Positions 370-15,658 of a stretch of 20,316 bases of DNA are shown in pieces. Origin of the DNA: a virus; IMG/VR virus record IMGVR_UViG_3300001450_006449, positions 9,949 to 30,264 of that record; one strand, 5' to 3'. The translations under genes and the position numbers were made by a program. The first letter of the stretch is position 1; the number at the start of each line of letters is the position of its first letter. The notes under the pieces were generated by a model. It ran no database searches and had not been told where the DNA came from. It was given only the letters and a program-made list of their open reading frames with translations.

Positions 370-3300
370 ATGGCAAAAATTGAAAATATAAGAGTATACC
401 CTACGGTAAAACCCGCAGCGGATGACTTACTAATAGCAACTGATGTTAGTGACAATAATAAAACGGTCACATTTTTAGTAAGCGATCTCTCAGGAGGTGC
501 TGCAATATTACAAGGATTGCAATCTGTTTTAGATGTAGATAATGTTGCTACAGGAAAAGATATTCTTCTTACAGGAAATATTAATGCTTTTGGAGGATAC
601 ATGAATGCTGATCAGTATCACATTAATGGATCACCAGGACTTTTAGGTCAAGTATTAACTTCAGGAGGTCCATCTGGAAGTGCAACCTGGTCCACTCCTT
701 CAGGGGGTAGTATTTGTTGTAATATACAAGATACTTTAGCTGCTGGTGATATCACCACTTTATCTATGAAAATGCAGGGTGTGGGACAGGAGTTAGCTTT
801 AAGCGGTGGAACAGATTTTAATATAACAGGAATAGGGTCAGACATTAATGTTAATGCTGGGTCTAAAATTAATCTTTCCTCTACCTCTACAATAAAGTTT
901 TACACAGGAGCAACAATAACTGATTATTCAGATAATACAGGAACAGCGGGACAAATATTAACTATAAACGCAGCGGGTACAGGATTAGAGTGGTCAACGG
1001 GAGTTCCGGGAACAGCAGTACCTCCTTTACAAAGCGTTTTAAATATTGGGCATATAGCTTCAGGAGGACCAGGTATTAGTATGACTAATAGCTCTCCTTT
1101 AGTTTTAGACACAACTTCTGGGATAAATTCTCTTGGTGACAATAACTGGACAGGGATAAATACTTTTAAAGCAAACCCCCTCAGCACACCAACTGTTCCA
1201 GTTGAAACTATTTTTTTAGATCACTGTTTTATAAAAGATACTAATGGTAGTTTAGGTAATGGTAAACAAATTCTAACTCCTTTTGACCCAAACGGATTAA
1301 CAACGGGTATATTTTGGAATGATCAAATTTCAAACCAATCTTTACAAGAGACATTAGATATAGGTAACGAGGCAACACAAACTATTAATCTCCATGGTGA
1401 TATTATTATGGATGATGGATCAGGTGCGGTTACTGGTACATTAATATTAGGAGCTAATGTTCCAATTTTCGACGGTACAGGTACGGGTGGTACAGTAGGT
1501 TATGTGTTAACAGCAACAGCAACAGGGGTAGAGTGGGCTCCCGCAAGTGGAGGTCCTGGAGCTACACCTAATTTATCACAAGTTTTAGCAGTTGGAAATA
1601 CTGCAGATAACAATATTATATTAACAGATACGGGTGGATTAGGTGCAGCAGGAAATATTACTTGTGTTCAAATAACCCCTACCAATATAATTGCTAACAA
1701 TGGTATTGGATCTACCGGTCAAATATTGTCGGTTACAGCAACCGGAGAAATACAGTGGATTACTAATACAGCAACCGGGATGAATAACTGGTTGTTTGAA
1801 GGGGATACAGGAGTACAACAAAATATAACACAGGCTGCCTTAGTGCAGTTTTTAGGAGATAATACAGCAATAAGTACTCAGTCTACCTCTTTAGATACAT
1901 TAACTATTAGTCATGATACCTTTGGTACTGCAGCCACATATGCATTTCCAGTTAGCATACAAACTAATTCAACAGGACATGTTACAAATATAACGCAGGG
2001 TATGGCTCCTGTTTCTTATGCTTTGAGTTCTCAGGTTAATGGATCTAATACTGAGTTAGACCTAACAGATAGTCTTGGTGCTGTTACTACTGTAACTTTA
2101 GTCCCTGGAAGTGGAATGACTATATCTGATAATGGTAGTAATCAAATTACTTTTTCTGCAGCTACCGCGGCAGGAATGACTAACTTCTTTATAGTATCAG
2201 ATTCTGGAACAGGATCTAAACAAAGCGTTACTGATGGAATTGATTATTTATTTGAAGGAGGAACTTATATAACTACTGTTCAAGTGGGAGGTACACCAAA
2301 TACTCTTACATTAAATCATGATTCCACAAATAGAACAAATACAACTTCTGCGGCTTCACCGGCATTTGGTGGTACGTTTACAGTTATAGATACAATGACT
2401 TCAAATACTACGGGTCATATTACTGATGTAAACACTAAAACAATAACATTACCAGCATCATCCGGAGTAACTACTATTAATACAGGATTAGGATTAACAG
2501 GAGGTCCTATAACTAATACGGGGACAATAGATGTAGATTATATAGGCTCAGATAATGTAGTATTATCAGCTATAAATGGATCCGCTCTACCAATTACTTT
2601 GAGTGATAGTATTCTTCTTAGCTCAGCTACTGTTGGGCCTAATAGCGTTTATCACATAACTCTATCTCAACTTACAACAGCAATTGGAGGAGTAACTTCA
2701 TTTAGCGCTCAAATTAATGGTACTGCACTTACAGAATCTGTTACTAATCCAACTACTACTCCAGACTTGACTCTTGCATGGGCAGGATCGGCTTCACAAT
2801 ATGTAAATGGAGCGGGGGATTTAATTAATATATCTACTCTTGCAAACACAACATATGATTTAAGTGTCCCATCAGCAACTACAGCTATTAGATTAGCAGG
2901 TAGTGATAGTACAAATGATGATGTTACTATAACAGGTGGAGCTAATGTTACGGTAACACGAATTAGTGCTACTGAATTAAGTATTGCCGCTGCAGCTTCT
3001 TCAGGACTTACATCATTTACTTTAGATGGTGATAGTGGTCCTCAACAGACGATAGATAACACTAACCCAGACATGAATATTTTGGGAGGTTCGGTAATTT
3101 CTTCTGTAGCGTCAGCTACGAATACCGTTACTTTAAATCATGATGCGGTTTCAAGAACTGATGTGCCTACTTCTCAAACCCCAACTGCAGGTACTGTAAT
3201 TCCTATAGTAACAGCAATCACTTCAACTACCGAAGGACACATAACAGCAGCAGCTATAGATACTATTACATGGCCTTCATTTGTTTCATCGGTAGGATTA

Positions 3301-6300
3301 CAATATCTAACTACAGGAGGGTCGGCTGTAGCAGGAGCGCCAGCATTTACTGTAGCAAGTAGTCCTATTGGAGGGTCAGGAAATTTACAATTAATAGGAG
3401 GTGGAACTTCTTCACAATATGTTACTGGTGAAGGTAAATTAGCTACATTCCCAAATATACCAGCTACTCCAGTATATACTTTAGATACAACACAAAATGG
3501 TCCAGTACAGGTAGATATAGATTTAGATTTAAATGGGGTTTCTGCTTCTCAAATAAGTTTAGTGGGAGGGACAGGTATTACTTCTATAACCGATAGTTCG
3601 GGAGTGATAACAATAGTAGCGTCCGGAACAGGAACAGTTCAGAATTTTACTGCAAGTATTGGTGGTAACGCACTTACTGAAATAGTAACTAACTCGACTA
3701 CTACTCCAGATCTTGCTATGACATGGTTAGGGACTTCTTCTCAATATATAAATGGAGAAGGGAATTTAGTGACTTTCCCTACTATGGCTGTAGCAAATGA
3801 ATACACTATTAGTACTGCTTTTTCAGGGGTAACTAATATTGCAGATATTGACTTAACACATTCAGGATCAGGATCAGGAGTAAGCTCTCAATTTGAATTA
3901 GAAGCTGGAGCTAACATGAGTTTAAGTGTAGCGGGAAATAAAATTACGCTTGCTGCTAATGCTACAACAGGATTAAGTTCATTCACCTTAGATGGAGATA
4001 GCGGTCCTCAACAAACCGTAGACACTACTAATCCTGATATGAATATATTAGGAGGAACTGTAATCTCTTCAGTTGCATCATCCACTAACACAGTAACTCT
4101 TAACCATGACAACGTTACAAGAACTAATACTTCTGGAGGAACAGTTGCTCCAGGGTCGGGAGGAACAATAGATGTAATAACAGCATTCACCTCAACGGCT
4201 CAAGGGCATGTGGATCAAGTAACAACTACTACTCTTGAGTTGCCAGCAGTTGGAGGAACTGTAACCAGTGTAGGTTTAGCAGCACCATCTGCATTTACAG
4301 TTACTAATTCTCCGGTAACAATTTCAGGAACATTAACATTGGCTGGAGCAGGAACGACTGCCCAATATATTGACGGAACAGGTTCTTTACAAACTTTCCC
4401 TACAATTGACAATACTACATATACATATGATGCTTTACAAGTTGGGTCTAATGTAGATTTACAATTAACACCTTCAGTGGGAAGTGTTGATAAAGTAAAA
4501 TTATTAGCTGGACTGGGTATAACATTGGCCACAGGAGGGACAACAGATGAGGTTACCATTTCGTCTATCAATACCGGAACAGTAACTAATTTCAATATGA
4601 CTTATTCCGATGCGGGTGGAAATGCTGTTCCTGGAGACCCAGCATTTGTGATTGGAATTTCTAATCCAACTACAGCTCCAGTAGTAACATTTACGGGAGC
4701 CGGAAAAATAGGTCAATATATAGATGGAACGGGATCTTTACAAGCTTTCCCTACTATTGACAATACAACTTATGACCTTACTACTACCGCGGGGGCTACG
4801 AATTTTGCTAATATAAATTTAGTGCCAAGTTCCGGATCTACTGATGTACTTAAGTTAGAAGCAGGAAGTAATCTGAGTCTAAGTGTAGATGCGGCTACAG
4901 GTACAATTACTTTAAATGCCGCGGCTTCTTCAGGTCTTACATCATTTACTATGCTTGGTACAGGTGCAGGTAGTACAACGGAAACAGTAAATAACACCAA
5001 CAATCAAATTAATTTTGATGGATTTAATCTTATAGATGTCAGCACTAAAGCAACCAATAATGTTCAAATTTCACATAATACTGTAACTACAACTGCCACT
5101 GCAGCAGCTTCATCTCCAGGGCATGGAGGCCAAGTAGACTTAGTATCCGCTCTTACAATGGATGCTTATGGTCATGTAACAGATATTGAAACTGATACAG
5201 TAACCTGGCCAGCAGCTGCAGGTCAAGTAGATACAGTTGATTTAACTTATACTACCCCAGGTCCACTAACAGGACTTTCTGGAGCTCCGGCATTTATAGC
5301 ATCAGTAGGAGGAACAGCTATAAATCCAGCTTTAGATCTTGAAGCGCAAGGTAAAGGTGCATCACAATATATAAATGGTTCTGGAATATTAGAAACCTTC
5401 CCAATTATACCATCGCAATGGTCAGGCTGGATTGCTGATGCAGATGTAAACACGTCTCCTCCTTGGACTATTAATAATGCGGCTACTCTTAAATTTGTAG
5501 GATTGGTAACAGCTGGGGGTGCAGGAATAAAAACTGCTACAATTCCAAGTACTGAATTAGAAATTGGATTAATAAATAATGGTGGGACACCAAGTGCCAC
5601 TACATTCTACAATGGAGCTGGACAGTGGGCTACACCAACGGGTAATATTTATACTCTAAGTGGTGGGACTTCTAATACAGGAAACACTAATACCTTTATA
5701 AAACTTGAGGAGAATGGATTCCCTACCAGTAGTGTAAAAGTAGCAGGAACAGGGGGAACTACGGTATCCTATGATACTACTCTTAACACTTATACTATTG
5801 ATAGTTCTACAGGATCAGCTACTAACTTTGATGTACAAGGTAGTACAGGAACTACAGTTAATATAACACAGAGCGACACCTTATCACTTTTAGCGGGAAC
5901 TGGAATATCTACAGTGTCCAATTCAGCAGGAGACTCAGTAACCATATCTAATACAGGAGTTACGTCACTTATCGCTGGACCAGGGATAAGTTTAAGTGGA
6001 AGTACGGGGGCTGTAACCGTTGAGGCTTCAGGAACAGGAAAAGCTCTTGGCCTCCATCCTACCCGTAATTTTACATGGGCTTCGTGGATGCTACAAAACA
6101 GGTTTGGAACAACTGGAACAATGGTTAACCCAGTATTTACATATGCCCCACGAATATGGAACAATGGGACTCCACCTAATCAAATACCAAGTAATTCACC
6201 TGGTTCAACTTCTTTTCAGCTTGTTAATTATAGTGCTCAAGTGGATGATCTGACTTTCCCATACTATATAGTTAATGTGGCAGGAACACAATCAACCGGC

Positions 6301-6717
6301 CAGGTGAAAGGGTTGGAAGGAGCCAGTAATTCACATATATTTAAAGCGCCTTTAAAGCAGGGTTCTTCTACATGGGAAGGTTATCTTGAACAAGCAGATA
6401 TAGCAATATCAGGAACTCCGCCGCTATTTCAGGTTGCGCCAGGTATACAGGATATCAGAATCCAAATAATTAAATCAGACTCTTGTGGTGCGACTTTTAG
6501 TAACGCAATAATAATAGGAGAGAAAAAAATTAGTACGTTTACAACCACAAGATCAATAGATTGTTATACGGTGGATTTATCAGGGGCCTCTACTTCAGAT
6601 AGAACTATTCAGGGAGATTCTAATATATATATCCAAATTGCCTTTACCGGAACTATTGATCTTGCTACTGATAACGGGTTTGGGTTTGCAGGAGATATAG
6701 GTCTGTATATAATATAA
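370..6717 (+). CDS. Giant repeat-built tail fibre protein (2,115 aa)
   Basis: This is probably the host-recognition fibre or tail spike. The first 45 residues (MAKIENIRVYP, then a DDLLIATDVSD segment) resemble fibre N-termini that attach to the tail. Residues ~50-470 alternate a motif like LxQVLxxGN (~50, 220, 325, 402) with GQxL...W (~93, 194, 377, 450). From ~470 the protein consists of larger modules. Each opens with a SFTLDGDSG-type segment and carries a GH[IV] motif, with His at 537, 683, 957, 1280 and 1602. A QYxxGxGxL motif follows at 810, 1016, 1125, 1332, 1449 and 1666. Residues 882-1203, 1204-1524 and ~1525-1840 form three copies of a ~322-residue unit. The last ~225 residues (from ~1890) are non-repetitive, contain the only dense aromatic and Cys residues, and are probably the receptor-binding tip. 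No endosialidase-type intramolecular chaperone is visible. The start ATG has an A-rich leader and lies 7 nt after the preceding stop. Confidence 0.8.
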   Translation: MAKIENIRVYPTVKPAADDLLIATDVSDNNKTVTFLVSDLSGGAAILQGLQSVLDVDNVATGKDILLTGNINAFGGYMNADQYHINGSPGLLGQVLTSGGPSGSATWSTPSGGSICCNIQDTLAAGDITTLSMKMQGVGQELALSGGTDFNITGIGSDINVNAGSKINLSSTSTIKFYTGATITDYSDNTGTAGQILTINAAGTGLEWSTGVPGTAVPPLQSVLNIGHIASGGPGISMTNSSPLVLDTTSGINSLGDNNWTGINTFKANPLSTPTVPVETIFLDHCFIKDTNGSLGNGKQILTPFDPNGLTTGIFWNDQISNQSLQETLDIGNEATQTINLHGDIIMDDGSGAVTGTLILGANVPIFDGTGTGGTVGYVLTATATGVEWAPASGGPGATPNLSQVLAVGNTADNNIILTDTGGLGAAGNITCVQITPTNIIANNGIGSTGQILSVTATGEIQWITNTATGMNNWLFEGDTGVQQNITQAALVQFLGDNTAISTQSTSLDTLTISHDTFGTAATYAFPVSIQTNSTGHVTNITQGMAPVSYALSSQVNGSNTELDLTDSLGAVTTVTLVPGSGMTISDNGSNQITFSAATAAGMTNFFIVSDSGTGSKQSVTDGIDYLFEGGTYITTVQVGGTPNTLTLNHDSTNRTNTTSAASPAFGGTFTVIDTMTSNTTGHITDVNTKTITLPASSGVTTINTGLGLTGGPITNTGTIDVDYIGSDNVVLSAINGSALPITLSDSILLSSATVGPNSVYHITLSQLTTAIGGVTSFSAQINGTALTESVTNPTTTPDLTLAWAGSASQYVNGAGDLINISTLANTTYDLSVPSATTAIRLAGSDSTNDDVTITGGANVTVTRISATELSIAAAASSGLTSFTLDGDSGPQQTIDNTNPDMNILGGSVISSVASATNTVTLNHDAVSRTDVPTSQTPTAGTVIPIVTAITSTTEGHITAAAIDTITWPSFVSSVGLQYLTTGGSAVAGAPAFTVASSPIGGSGNLQLIGGGTSSQYVTGEGKLATFPNIPATPVYTLDTTQNGPVQVDIDLDLNGVSASQISLVGGTGITSITDSSGVITIVASGTGTVQNFTASIGGNALTEIVTNSTTTPDLAMTWLGTSSQYINGEGNLVTFPTMAVANEYTISTAFSGVTNIADIDLTHSGSGSGVSSQFELEAGANMSLSVAGNKITLAANATTGLSSFTLDGDSGPQQTVDTTNPDMNILGGTVISSVASSTNTVTLNHDNVTRTNTSGGTVAPGSGGTIDVITAFTSTAQGHVDQVTTTTLELPAVGGTVTSVGLAAPSAFTVTNSPVTISGTLTLAGAGTTAQYIDGTGSLQTFPTIDNTTYTYDALQVGSNVDLQLTPSVGSVDKVKLLAGLGITLATGGTTDEVTISSINTGTVTNFNMTYSDAGGNAVPGDPAFVIGISNPTTAPVVTFTGAGKIGQYIDGTGSLQAFPTIDNTTYDLTTTAGATNFANINLVPSSGSTDVLKLEAGSNLSLSVDAATGTITLNAAASSGLTSFTMLGTGAGSTTETVNNTNNQINFDGFNLIDVSTKATNNVQISHNTVTTTATAAASSPGHGGQVDLVSALTMDAYGHVTDIETDTVTWPAAAGQVDTVDLTYTTPGPLTGLSGAPAFIASVGGTAINPALDLEAQGKGASQYINGSGILETFPIIPSQWSGWIADADVNTSPPWTINNAATLKFVGLVTAGGAGIKTATIPSTELEIGLINNGGTPSATTFYNGAGQWATPTGNIYTLSGGTSNTGNTNTFIKLEENGFPTSSVKVAGTGGTTVSYDTTLNTYTIDSSTGSATNFDVQGSTGTTVNITQSDTLSLLAGTGISTVSNSAGDSVTISNTGVTSLIAGPGISLSGSTGAVTVEASGTGKALGLHPTRNFTWASWMLQNRFGTTGTMVNPVFTYAPRIWNNGTPPNQIPSNSPGSTSFQLVNYSAQVDDLTFPYYIVNVAGTQSTGQVKGLEGASNSHIFKAPLKQGSSTWEGYLEQADIAISGTPPLFQVAPGIQDIRIQIIKSDSCGATFSNAIIIGEKKISTFTTTRSIDCYTVDLSGASTSDRTIQGDSNIYIQIAFTGTIDLATDNGFGFAGDIGLYII
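517..1780 (+). repeat. Short-period repeats in the N-terminal third of the fibre gene
   Basis: At the protein level, four copies of a motif like L(Q/S)xVLxxGN (near residues 50, 220, 325, 402) alternate with four copies of G(Q/Y)(I/V)L followed ~10 residues later by a Trp (near 93, 194, 377, 450). The DNA copies have diverged, so this is a protein repeat and not a recent DNA duplication. Such motifs are typical of trimeric fibre shafts. Confidence 0.6.
3013..5900 (+). repeat. Three tandem ~322-residue super-repeats in the fibre gene
   Basis: Unit boundaries, set at the Ser of the S-F-T segment, fall at nt 3013, 3979 and 4942, i.e. spacings of 966 and 963 nt, both multiples of three. The GH motif recurs at residues 957, 1280 and 1602 (spacings 323 and 322). 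Units 1 and 2 are nearly identical in protein over their first 44 residues, and unit 3 is more diverged. The right end of unit 3 is approximate. Confidence 0.8.
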
Positions 6718-6744: not shown

Positions 6745-6963
6745 ATGGACATTAGAAAAATATCAATCGGTGCTGACTATAAGTCAGGAGCGATGCATTA
6801 TATAGTAGGCCAGCCAGTTTTAGGAGGGTCGCACACTATTCATCTTATTCAACAAGCAAAAAATTCATATAAAATATGGATTGAAAAAGAGGAAAAGGTA
6901 TATATGTGGAAAGAGTTTATTGACACATTACCTATATCTGTAGAATATAATATAAACTTTTAA
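6745..6963 (+). CDS. Conserved-looking small protein of unknown function (72 aa)
   Basis: The protein is short and mixed alpha/beta: a hydrophobic N-terminal strand (IRKISIGADY), a central region with HYIVGQPV, then a charged helix (WIEKEEKVYMWKEF) and a terminal YNINF. No signal peptide, membrane segment or catalytic motif is visible. The start ATG lies 27 nt after the fibre stop behind an A/T-only leader. The stop TAA shares one base with the ATG of the next gene, which suggests translational coupling. It is the first of four compact genes leading to the terminase gene, so a virion-assembly role is likely by position only. I recall similar small proteins near terminase genes of crAss-like phages but cannot confirm it here. 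Confidence 0.7.
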   Translation: MDIRKISIGADYKSGAMHYIVGQPVLGGSHTIHLIQQAKNSYKIWIEKEEKVYMWKEFIDTLPISVEYNINF

Positions 6964-7526
6964 TGAGATCTCCATATTGCTTTATTGTAACTCCAGTAGA
7001 CAACAGGAGATATGATAATCTAAAACAAATAGGTGATGTTAAGTTTATTACCAGTGTATCTGAAGAAGATCACACTTCTTCTAATCGATTTGCTACAGTT
7101 ATAGAAACTCCTATTAATTATAAAGGTCCTATTGTAAAGGGAGATATTTTATTAGTTCATCATAATGTGTTTAAATTTTATAATGACATGAAGGGGAGAA
7201 GAAAAAGCGGGAGGAGTTATTTAAAAGAAAATTTATTCTTAGTAGACAATGATCAGTTTTTTATGTATAAACATAAAGACAAATGGAAGGCTTGGGGAAA
7301 GTATTGTTTTATAAAACCTGTAGATATAAAAGATTCTTATATCTTTAAGCCTGGTGGAGAGGAACCTCTATTTGGGGTAGTAAAATATATTAATGAGGAA
7401 TTATTAGATTTAGGTGTAAAAGAGGGGGATGAAGTATCTTTTATTCCTGGAAGTGAATATCCTTTTATTATAGAAGAAGAAAAATTATACCGTATGTTTA
7501 CTGATAATATAACTATGATCGCATGA
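6963..7526 (+). CDS. Putative tandem GroES-like co-chaperonin (187 aa)
   Basis: The sequence resembles two GroES-type beta-barrel domains in one chain. Half 1 (residues ~5-104) opens with YCFIVTPVD and continues with a loop region, ATVIETP and VKGDILLVHH. Half 2 (residues ~114-187) opens with YCFIKPVD and continues with FGVVKYI, LGVKEGDEVSF and a C-terminal EEKLYRMFTDNI. In GroES the equivalent pieces are the first strand, the mobile loop, a GxVxxVG strand, V(K/R)xGDxVxF and a terminal D-I-x-A-I strand. Known phage co-chaperonins (T4 gp31) replace GroES so that host GroEL can fold the capsid protein, which would fit a gene in the head operon. It overlaps the next gene by ATGA (7523-7526). The fold is an inference from motifs. 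An unrelated beta-barrel with an internal duplication remains possible. Confidence 0.6.
   Translation: MRSPYCFIVTPVDNRRYDNLKQIGDVKFITSVSEEDHTSSNRFATVIETPINYKGPIVKGDILLVHHNVFKFYNDMKGRRKSGRSYLKENLFLVDNDQFFMYKHKDKWKAWGKYCFIKPVDIKDSYIFKPGGEEPLFGVVKYINEELLDLGVKEGDEVSFIPGSEYPFIIEEEKLYRMFTDNITMIA
6975..7526 (+). repeat. Internal duplication within the co-chaperonin-like gene
   Basis: Residues 5-13 (YCFIVTPVD) and 114-121 (YCFIKPVD) are near-identical. Each is followed at a similar distance by a GD motif (VKGD at 58-61, VKEGDEV at 152-158) and then by a hydrophobic end segment. At the DNA level the halves begin at 6975 and 7302 and are diverged. Confidence 0.6.
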
Positions 7527-8101
7527 TACATATAGTAGATGACTTTATAGATAAAGATTTATTTAAGATAGCATCTAACTATTTAAAAAAAGGAGAGTTT
7601 ATAAAACATACTGTAGGTGAAAAAAACTTTTATGTGCAAGAATCTCCCACTACATTTGATGATTATGTATTAAGAAAATTAGCGATGATAGAGGGAAGGC
7701 CTTTAGAAAATATACTAAGTTTCTTTAGAGTATCTACCGATTCTTTAGATTCTAATTGGCGTATACATTCCGATTTAAATATAGATGGTCAAAAACCGGA
7801 TAGAGCCGCAGTACTGTACATGTCCCATAGAGAAAGAGAAGAGCTTCATGGAACAGCCTTTTGGGAACATGAAGTATATGGTAAAAATTTACCAACTCAT
7901 ATAACTAATGAGGAATATGATCGTATGATAAGGGTTGATTCTGAAGATTTAAATATGTGGAGATTAGTATCTGTTGCTGGTTATGAACAAAATAGATTAG
8001 TATCTTATCCAGCAAATTATTTTCATAGTAAATATCCTAATAAATCCTGGAAAGAAGGAAGGGAAGTATATGTAATATTTTATAAAATTAAAAAAAATTA
8101 A
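7523..8101 (+). CDS. 2-oxoglutarate/Fe(II)-dependent oxygenase (192 aa)
   Basis: The residues fit the double-stranded beta-helix oxygenase family, which uses Fe(II), O2 and 2-oxoglutarate to hydroxylate or demethylate a substrate. The iron-binding triad would be His82 and Asp84 (in WRIHSDL) and His168 (in NYFHSKYP). Arg180 in the EGREVYVIFY strand would bind 2-oxoglutarate. The N-terminal IHIVDDFID with an early helix, and the total length of ~190 residues, match prolyl-4-hydroxylase-like phage enzymes. The ATG overlaps the preceding stop (ATGA) and the stop directly abuts the ATG at 8102, so it is embedded in the head and packaging operon. The substrate cannot be predicted; protein side chains or modified DNA bases are both known for this family. 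The triad is intact, so the enzyme is probably active. Confidence 0.82.
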   Translation: MIHIVDDFIDKDLFKIASNYLKKGEFIKHTVGEKNFYVQESPTTFDDYVLRKLAMIEGRPLENILSFFRVSTDSLDSNWRIHSDLNIDGQKPDRAAVLYMSHREREELHGTAFWEHEVYGKNLPTHITNEEYDRMIRVDSEDLNMWRLVSVAGYEQNRLVSYPANYFHSKYPNKSWKEGREVYVIFYKIKKN

Positions 8102-8380
8102 ATGGATATAAGAGGTCTTAAAGAAAATATAATACTGGCAGCTGAGAAGGCTGTAAAGCAATTAGTAAAAGTAGCTAAAGAAGATATTATTAAGTTTGAC
8201 AGTGAAGATGAATTAGCTGCAGATAGATTAAAAAATGCAGCTGCTACTAAAAAATTAGCAATTTTTGATGCCTTTGAAATACTTAAACGAATAGAAGAAG
8301 AAAGAGCTATGCTGGACGGTAAAGTAGCTGAAAATAAAAACAATACACCTAAAGGTTTTGCAGAGTCACGATCAAAATAG
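8102..8380 (+). CDS. Small helical protein, candidate terminase small subunit (92 aa)
   Basis: The protein is almost wholly alpha-helical and charged. Segments such as ENIILAAEKAVKQLVKVAKE, ADRLKNAAATKKLAIFDAFE and LKRIEEERAML give amphipathic helices suited to oligomerisation or coiled coils. A disordered tail follows (from ~residue 77, KVAENKNNTPKGF). It starts at the base after the oxygenase stop and ends 13 nt before the preferred terminase start. A small helical protein directly upstream of the large terminase is the classical position of the DNA-recognising small subunit, which forms a ring and hands DNA to the motor. No helix-turn-helix is obvious, so this rests on position and composition only. 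Confidence 0.55.
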   Translation: MDIRGLKENIILAAEKAVKQLVKVAKEDIIKFDSEDELAADRLKNAAATKKLAIFDAFEILKRIEEERAMLDGKVAENKNNTPKGFAESRSK

Positions 8381-8393
8381 TCTACATAAAGTT

Positions 8394-10604
8394 ATGCACA
8401 ATATTGTGCCTAAGTCAGTTATCACTAATAAAAATAGAGGTAGGACTTGGTTGTATGGTTATAACGAAAAGTATGATATAGTTATTATATCTCACGACGG
8501 TACATTAGGAGAAATATATAATATAAATGGATTAAATATTGGATTACCTAAATCCCCTTCTTTAGTTTTTAAAAGATCTAATAAAAAAGAAGAACAATAT
8601 TGGCAGCCTTCCACTCTACCAAAAATATTAAGTCGTATTAAATCTATCTTTCAATGGCATGAAACTTCAGATGTATTTAAGGCTCAATGGGTTGAGTATA
8701 TTGAAACAGAGTTTGACAGAAGAGAACAAGGTTATTGGTTTATGAATAATGGCACTCCTACATATATTACAGGGACTCATTATATGTATTTACAATGGAC
8801 TAAAATTGATGTAGGAAATCCTGATTTTAGAGAGGCTAATAGAATCTTTTATATTTTTTGGGAAGCATGTAAGGCAGATAAAAGAAGCTTTGGTATGTGT
8901 TATCTAAAAATAAGACGTTCAGGATTTTCATTTATGAGTTCATGTGAAGGGGTAAATAAAGCTACTATAACTAAGGATGCCCGTATAGGTATTCTATCTA
9001 AAACAGGGTCGGATGCGAAGAAAATGTTTACCGATAAAGTAGTTCCTATATCTAATAATTATCCTTTCTTTTTTAAACCTATTCAAGATGGTATGGATAA
9101 GCCTAAAACAGAATTAGCATATAGGGTTCCGGCATCTAAGATTACAAAAAAGAATATGCATACCTTGGCCGACGAAGAGTTGGAAGGGTTAGATACTACT
9201 ATTGATTGGAAAAATACGGGGGATAATAGTTATGACGGTGAAAAATTACAACTACTACTTCATGATGAGAGTGGTAAATGGGAAAGGCCAGATAATATTC
9301 TAAATAACTGGAGGGTAACTAAAACTTGTTTGCGGTTAGGAAGTAAAATTATAGGAAAATGTATGATGGGTTCTACCTCTAACGCTTTAGATAAAGGGGG
9401 TAGTAATTTTAAATCTTTATATGAAGACTCTATACCCACCAAAAGAAATGCTAATGGTCAGACAAAGAGCGGTTTATATTGTTTGTTTGTTCCAATGGAG
9501 TGGAATTTTGAAGGGTATATAGATAGATATGGGATGCCCGTTTTATATACTCCCACTAAAACTATAATAGGGATTGATGGTGAGGATATTAAAGTAGGCG
9601 CTATTGATTATTGGACTAATGAAGTAGAATCTTTATCTCAAGATGCAGATGCTTTAAATGAATTTTACAGACAGTTTCCCAGAACAGAGTCTCATGCTTT
9701 TAGAGATGAAAGTAAACAATCTTTATTTAACCTTACTAAAATATACCAGCAAGTAGATTATAATGATTCTTTAATTATAGAACACCATACTACCAGAGGA
9801 TCTTTTCAATGGCAAGACGGTGTTAAAGACACAAAAGTTATATGGTCTCCTAATAAAAATGGAAGATTTTTAGTTACATGGACTCCAGGTCCTGGTCTTC
9901 AAAACAGAATGATAACAGAGAGAGGAAATAAGAAACCAGGGAATGAACATTTAGGGTCTTTTGGATGTGACTCTTATGATATATCAGGAGTAGTAGTAGG
10001 GAAGGGGTCTAACGGGGCTCTTCATGGATTAACAAAATTTAACATGGACGACGCTCCCAGTAATGAGTTTTTTTTAGAGTATATAGCTCGACCACAAACT
10101 GCGGAGATATTTTTTGAAGAAGTACTTATGGCTTGTATTTTTTATGGGATGCCTATACTTTGCGAAAACAATAAACCTCGACTTCTTTATCATTTTAAAA
10201 ATAGAGGATATAGAGGATACTGTTTAAATAGGCCAGATAAAACATATAATAAACTTTCTAAAACAGAGAAGGAATTAGGGGGGATCCCTAATAGTTCAGA
10301 AGATGTAAAACAATCTCACGCTTCCGCTATAGAATCATACATTGAAAAGCATGTAGGGGTTGATTTGGAAGGGCAATATAGAGAGACAGACGATATGGGT
10401 AGAATGTATTTTCAACGTACATTAGAGGATTGGGCAAAGTTTGATATAAGTAATAGAACTAAATTTGATGCGGCTATTAGTTCCGGGTTAGCTATCATGG
10501 CTAACCAAAAGCACTTATACACACCATCTAAAGAGAAATCAAAAATAAGTATTAACTTTGCAAGATATAATAATAAGAGTAAACTTAGTAAAATAATTAC
10601 ATGA
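8394..10604 (+). CDS. terL: Terminase large subunit (DNA-packaging ATPase/nuclease)
   Basis: This is the motor that pumps DNA into the prohead and cuts it. Numbered from the ATG at 8394 (736 aa), a GTHYMYLQW segment lies at ~127. A deviant Walker A follows (Lys172, then RRSGFSFMSS from 174). The Walker B LLLHDE ends at Asp291-Glu292 and is followed by SGKW. The C-terminal RNase H-like nuclease has GCDSYD (Asp526, Asp529) and a later acidic CENNKPR segment. The length and the RRxGxS motif agree with crAss-like terminases as I recall them. A longer frame begins at a TTG at 8358, overlapping the previous gene by 23 nt. I prefer the ATG because every other start here is ATG. The stop overlaps the portal start (ATGA at 10601), which suggests coupled translation. 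Confidence 0.9.
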   Translation: MHNIVPKSVITNKNRGRTWLYGYNEKYDIVIISHDGTLGEIYNINGLNIGLPKSPSLVFKRSNKKEEQYWQPSTLPKILSRIKSIFQWHETSDVFKAQWVEYIETEFDRREQGYWFMNNGTPTYITGTHYMYLQWTKIDVGNPDFREANRIFYIFWEACKADKRSFGMCYLKIRRSGFSFMSSCEGVNKATITKDARIGILSKTGSDAKKMFTDKVVPISNNYPFFFKPIQDGMDKPKTELAYRVPASKITKKNMHTLADEELEGLDTTIDWKNTGDNSYDGEKLQLLLHDESGKWERPDNILNNWRVTKTCLRLGSKIIGKCMMGSTSNALDKGGSNFKSLYEDSIPTKRNANGQTKSGLYCLFVPMEWNFEGYIDRYGMPVLYTPTKTIIGIDGEDIKVGAIDYWTNEVESLSQDADALNEFYRQFPRTESHAFRDESKQSLFNLTKIYQQVDYNDSLIIEHHTTRGSFQWQDGVKDTKVIWSPNKNGRFLVTWTPGPGLQNRMITERGNKKPGNEHLGSFGCDSYDISGVVVGKGSNGALHGLTKFNMDDAPSNEFFLEYIARPQTAEIFFEEVLMACIFYGMPILCENNKPRLLYHFKNRGYRGYCLNRPDKTYNKLSKTEKELGGIPNSSEDVKQSHASAIESYIEKHVGVDLEGQYRETDDMGRMYFQRTLEDWAKFDISNRTKFDAAISSGLAIMANQKHLYTPSKEKSKISINFARYNNKSKLSKIIT

Positions 10605-14227: not shown

Positions 14228-15658
14228 ATGGCAGTAAATGCAACACCAGGGTTTGACCTCCAGCCAAGTGCGGAGCGAGTAGCCCTACCAAGTAACTACA
14301 TTACTAACTTTGATTTTCTTAATCAGTATCTTCCAGATACATATGAGAAAGAATTTGAAAGATATGGTAATAGAACAGTAGCTTCATTCTTAAGAATGGT
14401 AGGCGCTGAAATGCCTTCAAACTCAGACATGATAAAATGGGCTGAACAAGGAAGGTTACATAGTAAATATACAGATTGTGCTATCACAGCTGGTGCAACA
14501 ACGGCAGCGGGTACTATTACTGTTAGTGACGTGTTAAATCCAGTAGGCTCAAACATCGCAGTAAGAGTAGGTCAAACTATTTTTATCTCTGATAATGCAG
14601 CGGGTTCTACTAATTCAAACAAAGCAATTGTAACGGCTGTACCAACGGCTAACACAATTACGGTAGCGTTTTATGAAGCAGTACTAACAGTTCCAGTAGG
14701 TGCTGGACAAGTTTCTATAATGATCTATGGTTCTGAGTTCGCTAAAGGAACTTCAGGAATGGTTGATTCATTAGAGGCTAACGATGTATTCTTTGACAAC
14801 AAACCAATTATCATTAAGGATACTTACGAGGTAAGTGGTTCTGACATGGCTCAAATTGGATGGGTTGAAATCTCTACTGAAAATGGTGGATCAGGATACC
14901 TATGGTACATGAAGTCTGAGCATGAAACAAGATTACGTTTTGAAGACTACTTAGAAACAGCAATGATTGAAGCAGTTCCTGCGGAAGCAGCATCAGGGGC
15001 GGCAGATTACTTACAAAGTGTAGGTGCTGGTCTTGGAACAGCTAACGGATCTGGTTCTGAAGGAGTATTCCATGTAGTAGGAACAAGAGGAAATGTATGG
15101 GGCGGTGGTAACCCAACTACTCTTGCAGGTTTTGACTCTATTATTCAGAGATTAGATAAGCAAGGTGCTATTGAAGAAAATGTTCTTTTTGTTAACCGTC
15201 AATTCTCATTTGATATTGATGATATGTTAGCTGCTCAAAACTCTTATGGAGCGGGTGGTACATCATATGGTCTATTTGATAATGATGAAGAAATGGCTCT
15301 TAACTTAGGGTTCACAGGATTCCGTAGAGGTTATGACTTTTATAAGTCTGACTGGAAGTATTTAAATGATGCTTCAATGAGAGGAGATACTGTTGGTGGT
15401 GGAATCAATGGACTTTTAGTTCCAGCTGGATCTACTTCTGTATACGATCAAATCTTAGGTAAAAATGCAAAGCGTCCTTTCTTACACGTTAGATATAGAG
15501 CGTCTGAGACTGAAGACAGAAGATATAAAACTTGGATCACTGGTTCTGCTGGTGGAGCAAGAACATCTTCTTTAGATGCAATGCAGGTTAACTTCTTGAG
15601 TGAAAGAGCTTGTTGTACTTTAGGTGCAAACAACTTCTTCTTATTCCAAGATGCATAA
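14228..15658 (+). CDS. Major capsid protein, HK97-like fold (476 aa)
   Basis: This should form the icosahedral shell. The N-terminal region has QYLPDTYEKEFERYGNRT (33-50), FLRMVGAEMP (54-63) and WAEQGRLH (71-78), which I recognise as a signature of crAss-like major capsid proteins. Residues ~84-168 form a Thr/Ala/Val-rich, strand-like insertion, probably a surface or Ig-like domain. After it the sequence returns to capsid-like segments (FAKGTSGMVDSLEAN, VFFDNKPIIIKDTYEVS, then HVRYRASETEDRRYKTW near the C-terminus). No propeptide cleavage site is obvious. The gene lies 15 nt after the scaffold gene without a promoter box of its own, and a strong terminator follows 12 nt after the stop. Its codons are richer in TTC and AAC than neighbouring genes, as expected of a very highly expressed protein. 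Confidence 0.92.
   Translation: MAVNATPGFDLQPSAERVALPSNYITNFDFLNQYLPDTYEKEFERYGNRTVASFLRMVGAEMPSNSDMIKWAEQGRLHSKYTDCAITAGATTAAGTITVSDVLNPVGSNIAVRVGQTIFISDNAAGSTNSNKAIVTAVPTANTITVAFYEAVLTVPVGAGQVSIMIYGSEFAKGTSGMVDSLEANDVFFDNKPIIIKDTYEVSGSDMAQIGWVEISTENGGSGYLWYMKSEHETRLRFEDYLETAMIEAVPAEAASGAADYLQSVGAGLGTANGSGSEGVFHVVGTRGNVWGGGNPTTLAGFDSIIQRLDKQGAIEENVLFVNRQFSFDIDDMLAAQNSYGAGGTSYGLFDNDEEMALNLGFTGFRRGYDFYKSDWKYLNDASMRGDTVGGGINGLLVPAGSTSVYDQILGKNAKRPFLHVRYRASETEDRRYKTWITGSAGGARTSSLDAMQVNFLSERACCTLGANNFFLFQDA

Follow-up and report, generated by a model that had tools for sequence, protein, structure and literature searches.

Why would a virus that carries a complete GroEL/GroES set of its own also encode, just 5′ of its terminase, portal and capsid genes, a further GroES-like protein that appears to be double? 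This question is raised by one gene of a 60.4-kb virus record (IMGVR_UViG_3300001450_006449), of which positions 9949-30264, a stretch of 20,316 nucleotides, were analysed here and are called the window. A preliminary description of the sequence had proposed that the ORF at 6963-7526 encodes a fused double GroES-like co-chaperonin, on the grounds that the motif YCFI occurs at residues 5 and 114 and that each half contains a GD motif. The ORF and both pairs of motifs are confirmed (YCFI at residues 5-8 and 114-117; VKGD at 58-61 and KEGD at 153-156).

Gene and operon context

The gene and its neighbours, in window coordinates, are the following.

6963..7526, + strand: two-domain GroES-like protein of 187 aa, matching phrog_13932
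6745..6963, + strand: coupled ORF of 72 aa directly upstream of the double GroES, a conserved neighbour with a 1-base overlap
7523-8101, + strand: ORF of 192 aa between the double GroES and the terminase, weakly like DUF6445 and phrog_1644 ('minor coat protein')
8358..10604, + strand: terminase large subunit, the conserved downstream neighbour (phrog_6681, E 1e-178)
14228..15658, + strand: virion structural protein, likely the major capsid protein (phrog_13704, E 9e-100)

The double GroES gene thus sits in the head/packaging operon, upstream of the terminase, portal and capsid genes, which is the setting that the preliminary description had assigned to it. Its ATG shares bases with the stop codon of the preceding ORF (TAATG), and its stop codon shares bases with the next start (ATGA), so that the joints on both sides overlap as in a translationally coupled operon. 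A relative of the 72-aa ORF is present in 151 loci, with the same overlap in nearly all those listed. All 171 relatives with enough sequence to show it have the terminase gene downstream in the same orientation, 148 of them within 1 kb. The 192-aa ORF is found in just 32 of these 171 relatives, which indicates an optional insertion in the operon. Upstream of the operon, positions 370-6717 (+ strand) encode a repetitive, Gly/Thr/Ser-rich, fibre-like protein of 2115 aa.

Predicted fold and sequence homology of the two halves

An AlphaFold model of the full chain, built from 78 aligned sequences, consists of two GroES-type barrels (mean pLDDT 89.4, pTM 0.83). The parts of the chain to which the following paragraphs refer are these.

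6963..7277, + strand: N-terminal GroES-type domain, residues 1-105, a predicted fold
6996..7088, + strand: mobile-loop region of the N-half, residues 12-42, with the lowest pLDDT of the model
7176..7226, + strand: extra basic beta-hairpin of the N-half, residues 72-88, from the model strands, with the invariant G78
7278..7523, + strand: C-terminal GroES domain, residues 106-187, from structure and sequence profiles
7320..7370, + strand: shortened loop of the C-half, residues 120-136, from pLDDT and loop lengths

Searching with the full-chain model in Foldseek retrieved, as the two top entries of the PDB, 7ekq_R (Cpn20; E 1.4e-4) and 7ekq_Q (Cpn23; E 5e-4), followed by GroES. The VIA-alignment to Cpn20 (Z 10.2) superimposes 159 residues at 4.5 A, covers both domains and spans residues 1-187; compared with 7ekq_R and 7ekq_Q, the two domains of the model are arranged as neighbours in a ring, as they are in Cpn20-type chains. 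In a viral structure library, the closest named match was the 'cpn10' of phi18:3 (TM 0.78). Taken separately, the C-half aligns to bacterial GroES with Z 8-9.5, most of these alignments at 2-3 A. The N-half predicted alone (residues 1-108) is still a confident barrel (pLDDT 90, pTM 0.80), and each of its top 15 entries in VIA is a GroES, a Cpn10, a tandem Cpn20 or gp31 (Z 6.4-7.9, a range that the notes of the tool grade as middling). The GroES-like domains of dehydrogenases score below the GroES and gp31 entries against this half, at Z 5.4 or less. The preliminary description had staked its proposal on neither half adopting another fold; structure prediction combined with fold search gave GroES beta-barrels for both halves, ahead of other folds, and the proposal of a fused double GroES-like protein is supported. 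The GroES-type folds of the two halves and their mutual arrangement are, in this form, predictions of the model.

The sequence divides the halves differently. Pfam and NCBIfam searches with the double GroES gave no match, and the profile phrog_13932, named 'co-chaperonin GroES', was matched over its whole length (E 1.9e-18; residues 1-183 on profile positions 1-195 of 200). The phi38:1 and phi19:3 relatives reach 28.2 and 31.7 bits for the Pfam Cpn10 profile (PF00166, cut-off 21.1 bits), in both cases in the C-half, and the best PDB matches of the family profile are GroES structures aligned to residues 117-186 (E 7e-4). When the half-profiles were compared by HHalign with a separate Cpn10 profile, constructed for this analysis, the C-half scored 37.7 (E 1e-6), the maximum of 150 column shuffles being 23. 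In contrast, the N-half scored 16.5, inside its null (shuffled maximum 17.7), and alone in Foldseek it gave weak hits (best E 0.025), so that its assignment derives from predicted structure and not from sequence homology. Homology to Cpn10 is therefore shown at the sequence level for the C-half, and the N-half is detectable as GroES-type by its predicted structure only.

The repeated motifs were also considered as statistical proof of a duplication, and in this role the YCFI/VKxGD repeat had to be rejected. Aligned locally, the two halves reach a score of 31, where the 95% null is 33 (p = 0.11), 9% of shuffles also give a shared 4-mer, and the HHalign comparison of the two half-profiles covers 12 columns only, around the GD motif. 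The relatives, moreover, do not retain the exact YCFI in the N-half. The two YCFI copies do mark equivalent first strands, and the two-domain inference proved right because, in the two predicted GroES-type barrels, the motifs occupy positions that correspond structurally.

The halves are unequal in their loops. When its length is taken between equivalent landmarks, the region of the mobile loop spans 31 residues of the N-half and 17 of the C-half; the figure for E. coli GroES is 22. The weak stretch of the model, approximately residues 21-40 (block means 66 and 59), coincides with the position of the GroES mobile loop in the N-half. In this loop, the hydrophobic positions 26, 28 and 29 are kept, of which position 28 is hydrophobic in 78 of 78 sequences and position 29 in 76 of 78, a pattern that these two share with the IVL motif of GroES; judged by sequence and model, the N-half thus has a flexible loop with a putative hydrophobic GroEL-binding motif. 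The loop of the C-half is confidently ordered (pLDDT blocks 89-93) and is the most variable segment of the protein. The earlier suggestion that such a chain could present two types of mobile loop fits this pairing of a 31-residue flexible hydrophobic hairpin with 17 ordered residues. The roof region is short in both halves (11 residues in the N-half and 12 in the C-half, vs 19 in E. coli GroES), and neither half has a roof hairpin; the single GroES of the phage, with a roof of 10 residues, has none either. T4 gp31 is likewise reported to have a reduced roof, which enlarges the chamber. The N-half contains, in addition, a hairpin with model strands at residues 72-74, 80-82 and 86-88, which is basic in this group and whose G78 is invariant across the 78 sequences.

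Relatives, co-encoded chaperonins and known tandem chains

Relatives of the double GroES number at least several hundred in IMG/VR, and named ones occur in the Flavobacterium elemo phages, in the Cellulophaga phages phi38:1, phi40:1, Calle and phi19:3, in a Maribacter phage and in ctfjg026. The Cellulophaga and Flavobacterium versions are 24-37% identical over the whole length and occupy the same site upstream of the terminase. Public records already name them 'co-chaperonin GroES' or 'chaperonin cpn10' (phi38:1 gp089, phi19:3 gp101, Calle_1 gp13 and the Flavobacterium elemo phages), and the family as such is therefore not new. 'Chaperonin cpn10' has also been listed as a core protein of the Pervagoviridae (PMC8776804), and since Calle_1 has two genes named cpn10, one double and one single, it is uncertain which of them is meant there. 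No description of a two-domain GroES in a phage was found in the literature searched, outside which many subscription papers lie; the tandem design, the asymmetry of the loops and the relation of the phage family to Cpn20 appear to be undescribed. The host of the virus is probably a marine Bacteroidota bacterium. That the family might be a gene of bacterial cells was considered and rejected: genome contigs gave 17 matches, all of them in metagenome-assembled bins and mostly on short contigs, and these are likely binned phage DNA. A double GroES is also contained in CP070801.1, a 1.05-Mb MAG 'chromosome' labelled Aenigmatarchaeota, probably through chimeric assembly or the binning of phage DNA.

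The other chaperonin genes of the virus lie outside the window, at the following positions of the whole record.

965-2527 of the record: phage groEL
3081-3332 of the record: phage single-domain groES

Among 44 related virus records, 22 of which had been chosen via the single groES rather than the double, the double gene is present in 44, the single groES in 40 and groEL in 39. Of the four records in which the single groES is missing, two break off inside groEL or next to it, and the other two are fragments of about 50 kb that contain neither the single groES nor groEL. The phages phi19:3 and phi13:2 and one 72.8-kb record have the single and the double GroES without groEL, which implies that they use the GroEL of the host or another partner. 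A single groES also occurs in some other phages that lack the double gene. The carriers all come from a single broad lineage, for which reason the co-occurrence of these genes does not count as independent evidence of an interaction. Within this phage group, GroEL has been reported in 36 of 78 'group 2' environmental genomes with phi38:1 (PMC5332604), and the phi38:1 GroEL was detected during infection (PMC13288928).

The closest known design is that of the chloroplast and apicoplast Cpn20/Cpn23 (Chlamydomonas, 7ekq), which is the best whole-chain structural match and likewise joins two GroES-type domains head to tail, within a chain that is about 190-210 aa long and is encoded alongside a single-domain Cpn10 and a Cpn60. 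The phage protein differs in being viral, in sharing 11-13% identity with these chains, in its place in a packaging operon, in its unequal mobile loops and in its short roof loops. Further, E. coli GroES matches two stretches in Cpn20 and in Cpn23, whereas in the phage chain the C-half alone matches Cpn10. Because only the C-half is Cpn10-like by sequence, the protein is described here as Cpn20-like in design without being filed as a Cpn20-type member, and the phage fusion is probably independent of the chloroplast one. T4 gp31 shares with the phage protein a phage GroES-type fold, to which both halves align (1g31 and 2cgt, Z 6.7-7.6), and a reduced roof, but gp31 is a single-domain protein that works with host GroEL, whereas here two domains are encoded together with a phage GroEL and GroES. 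Canonical GroES (PF00166) is homologous to the C-half and shares the hydrophobic pattern of the mobile loop with the N-half; in contrast to the phage chain, it is one domain of ~95 aa that forms a homo-heptamer, with a 22-residue mobile loop and a 19-residue roof in E. coli. The phage proteins of phrog_13932 are of the same family and in the same place, and differ from the present one in sequence alone; the literature searched contained no description of a function or of two domains for them.

Tandem GroES chains have been described as specific to chloroplasts, and it is a matter of debate why a sevenfold barrel should be closed by a lid with an even number of domains. The phage family, which is widespread, apparently made its own fusion of two GroES domains and retained a single GroES and GroEL alongside, and it would be a compact system for testing the composition of the lid against the folding chamber, and for finding which head proteins need it. 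Some of its members are cultivated and have known laboratory hosts (Cellulophaga phi38:1 and the Flavobacterium elemo phages).

Possible roles of the double protein

The double GroES is most likely a phage tandem co-chaperonin that serves as a lid on a GroEL ring for the folding of head proteins, a reading that we consider reasonably probable. It is suggested by Cpn20/Cpn23 being the top full-chain matches, with each half matching GroES or gp31; by the Cpn10 homology of the C-half sequence; by a genome that encodes groEL and groES as well; by the invariant head-operon site; and by an N-loop whose hydrophobic pattern is kept and which is modelled with low confidence. Against it, the phage already has its full GroEL/GroES set, so that the need for another lid is not evident, the place in the packaging operon would equally suit a role in the virion or in assembly, and the N-half is not Cpn10 by sequence, has middling Z scores and gives Foldseek E-values above 0.02. 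The co-chaperonin activity, GroEL binding, ring composition and client of the double GroES are inferences. The two GroES-type domains of one chain would be placed as adjacent GroES subunits are in their ring, following the pattern of Cpn20, and would cap the GroEL of the phage or, in the relatives without groEL, that of the host. The long mobile loop of the N-domain would grip the apical groove of GroEL and the C-domain, with its short ordered loop, would mainly complete the ring; the shortened roofs of both halves might give a more open dome, as reported for T4 gp31. The capped ring could then enclose a chamber suited to the folding of phage head proteins, with the product of 14228..15658 as a candidate client.

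Two-domain chains cannot evenly fill a sevenfold ring, so that the single GroES may supply the odd site. In algae and plants, Cpn10 and Cpn20 form mixed rings of seven domains (PMC5780408), and a paper on Arabidopsis mentions that at least four of the seven loops have to be working ones (PMC4242682). If each double chain contributes one full loop, a ring of three doubles and one single would have four, and by this arithmetic the single GroES would be essential. A three-part machine, in which the phage GroEL and a seven-domain lid of three doubles and one single fold the capsid protein, is advanced as a tentative and fairly unlikely specification; such a lid would have evolved in viruses independently of its Cpn10/Cpn20 counterpart in chloroplasts, and would have unequal loops and a more open roof. 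Alternatively, three or four tandem chains may make up the lid by themselves, with no phage GroES in it, as a homo-oligomer of the kind that Cpn20 of Arabidopsis or Plasmodium can form. This is a sub-case of the lid reading, with which its probability overlaps, and we regard it as possible if somewhat unlikely. Both the action of Cpn20 as a homotetramer and the functioning of concatamers of six or eight GroES domains with GroEL have been reported (PMC5780408). However, every record of sufficient length has the single groES, even where groEL is absent, and if the N-loop alone grips, such a ring would make 3-4 contacts, which does not exceed the four working loops reported as necessary.

The strongest rival lies outside chaperonin work: a GroES-derived protein may have passed to a structural, scaffolding or packaging-accessory role with the terminase, the portal or the capsid. 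Its invariant place directly upstream of the terminase, also in the Cellulophaga and Flavobacterium phages, the ordinary groES elsewhere in the genome, and the extra conserved hairpin in a diverged N-half would all suit this role. The mobile loop, however, has stayed flexible and hydrophobic in almost every one of the 78 sequences, and the phi38:1, phi19:3, Calle_1 and elemo records label the neighbours as structural and not the double GroES, although this is a weak argument from annotation only. On balance, the packaging role is unlikely, and the lid on a GroEL ring is preferred to it. An action on the host, through competition for host GroEL, through its redirection, or through the capping of a different sevenfold machine such as ClpP, is more distant and quite improbable. 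The best structural match is a co-chaperonin on the chloroplast ClpP (the algal Cpn11/20/23 lid, 7ekq), and the single and double GroES without groEL in phi19:3 and phi13:2 would agree with such a partner, whereas the packaging-operon site favours assembly over an early takeover of the host and most of the related records (39 of 44) bring a GroEL of their own. Finally, that GroES is confined to the C-half and the second domain is a modelling artefact is highly improbable: sequence methods do detect the C-half only, but the N-half modelled alone keeps its barrel and has co-chaperonins in all of its top 15 entries, and tandem co-chaperonins are the best matches of the full chain.
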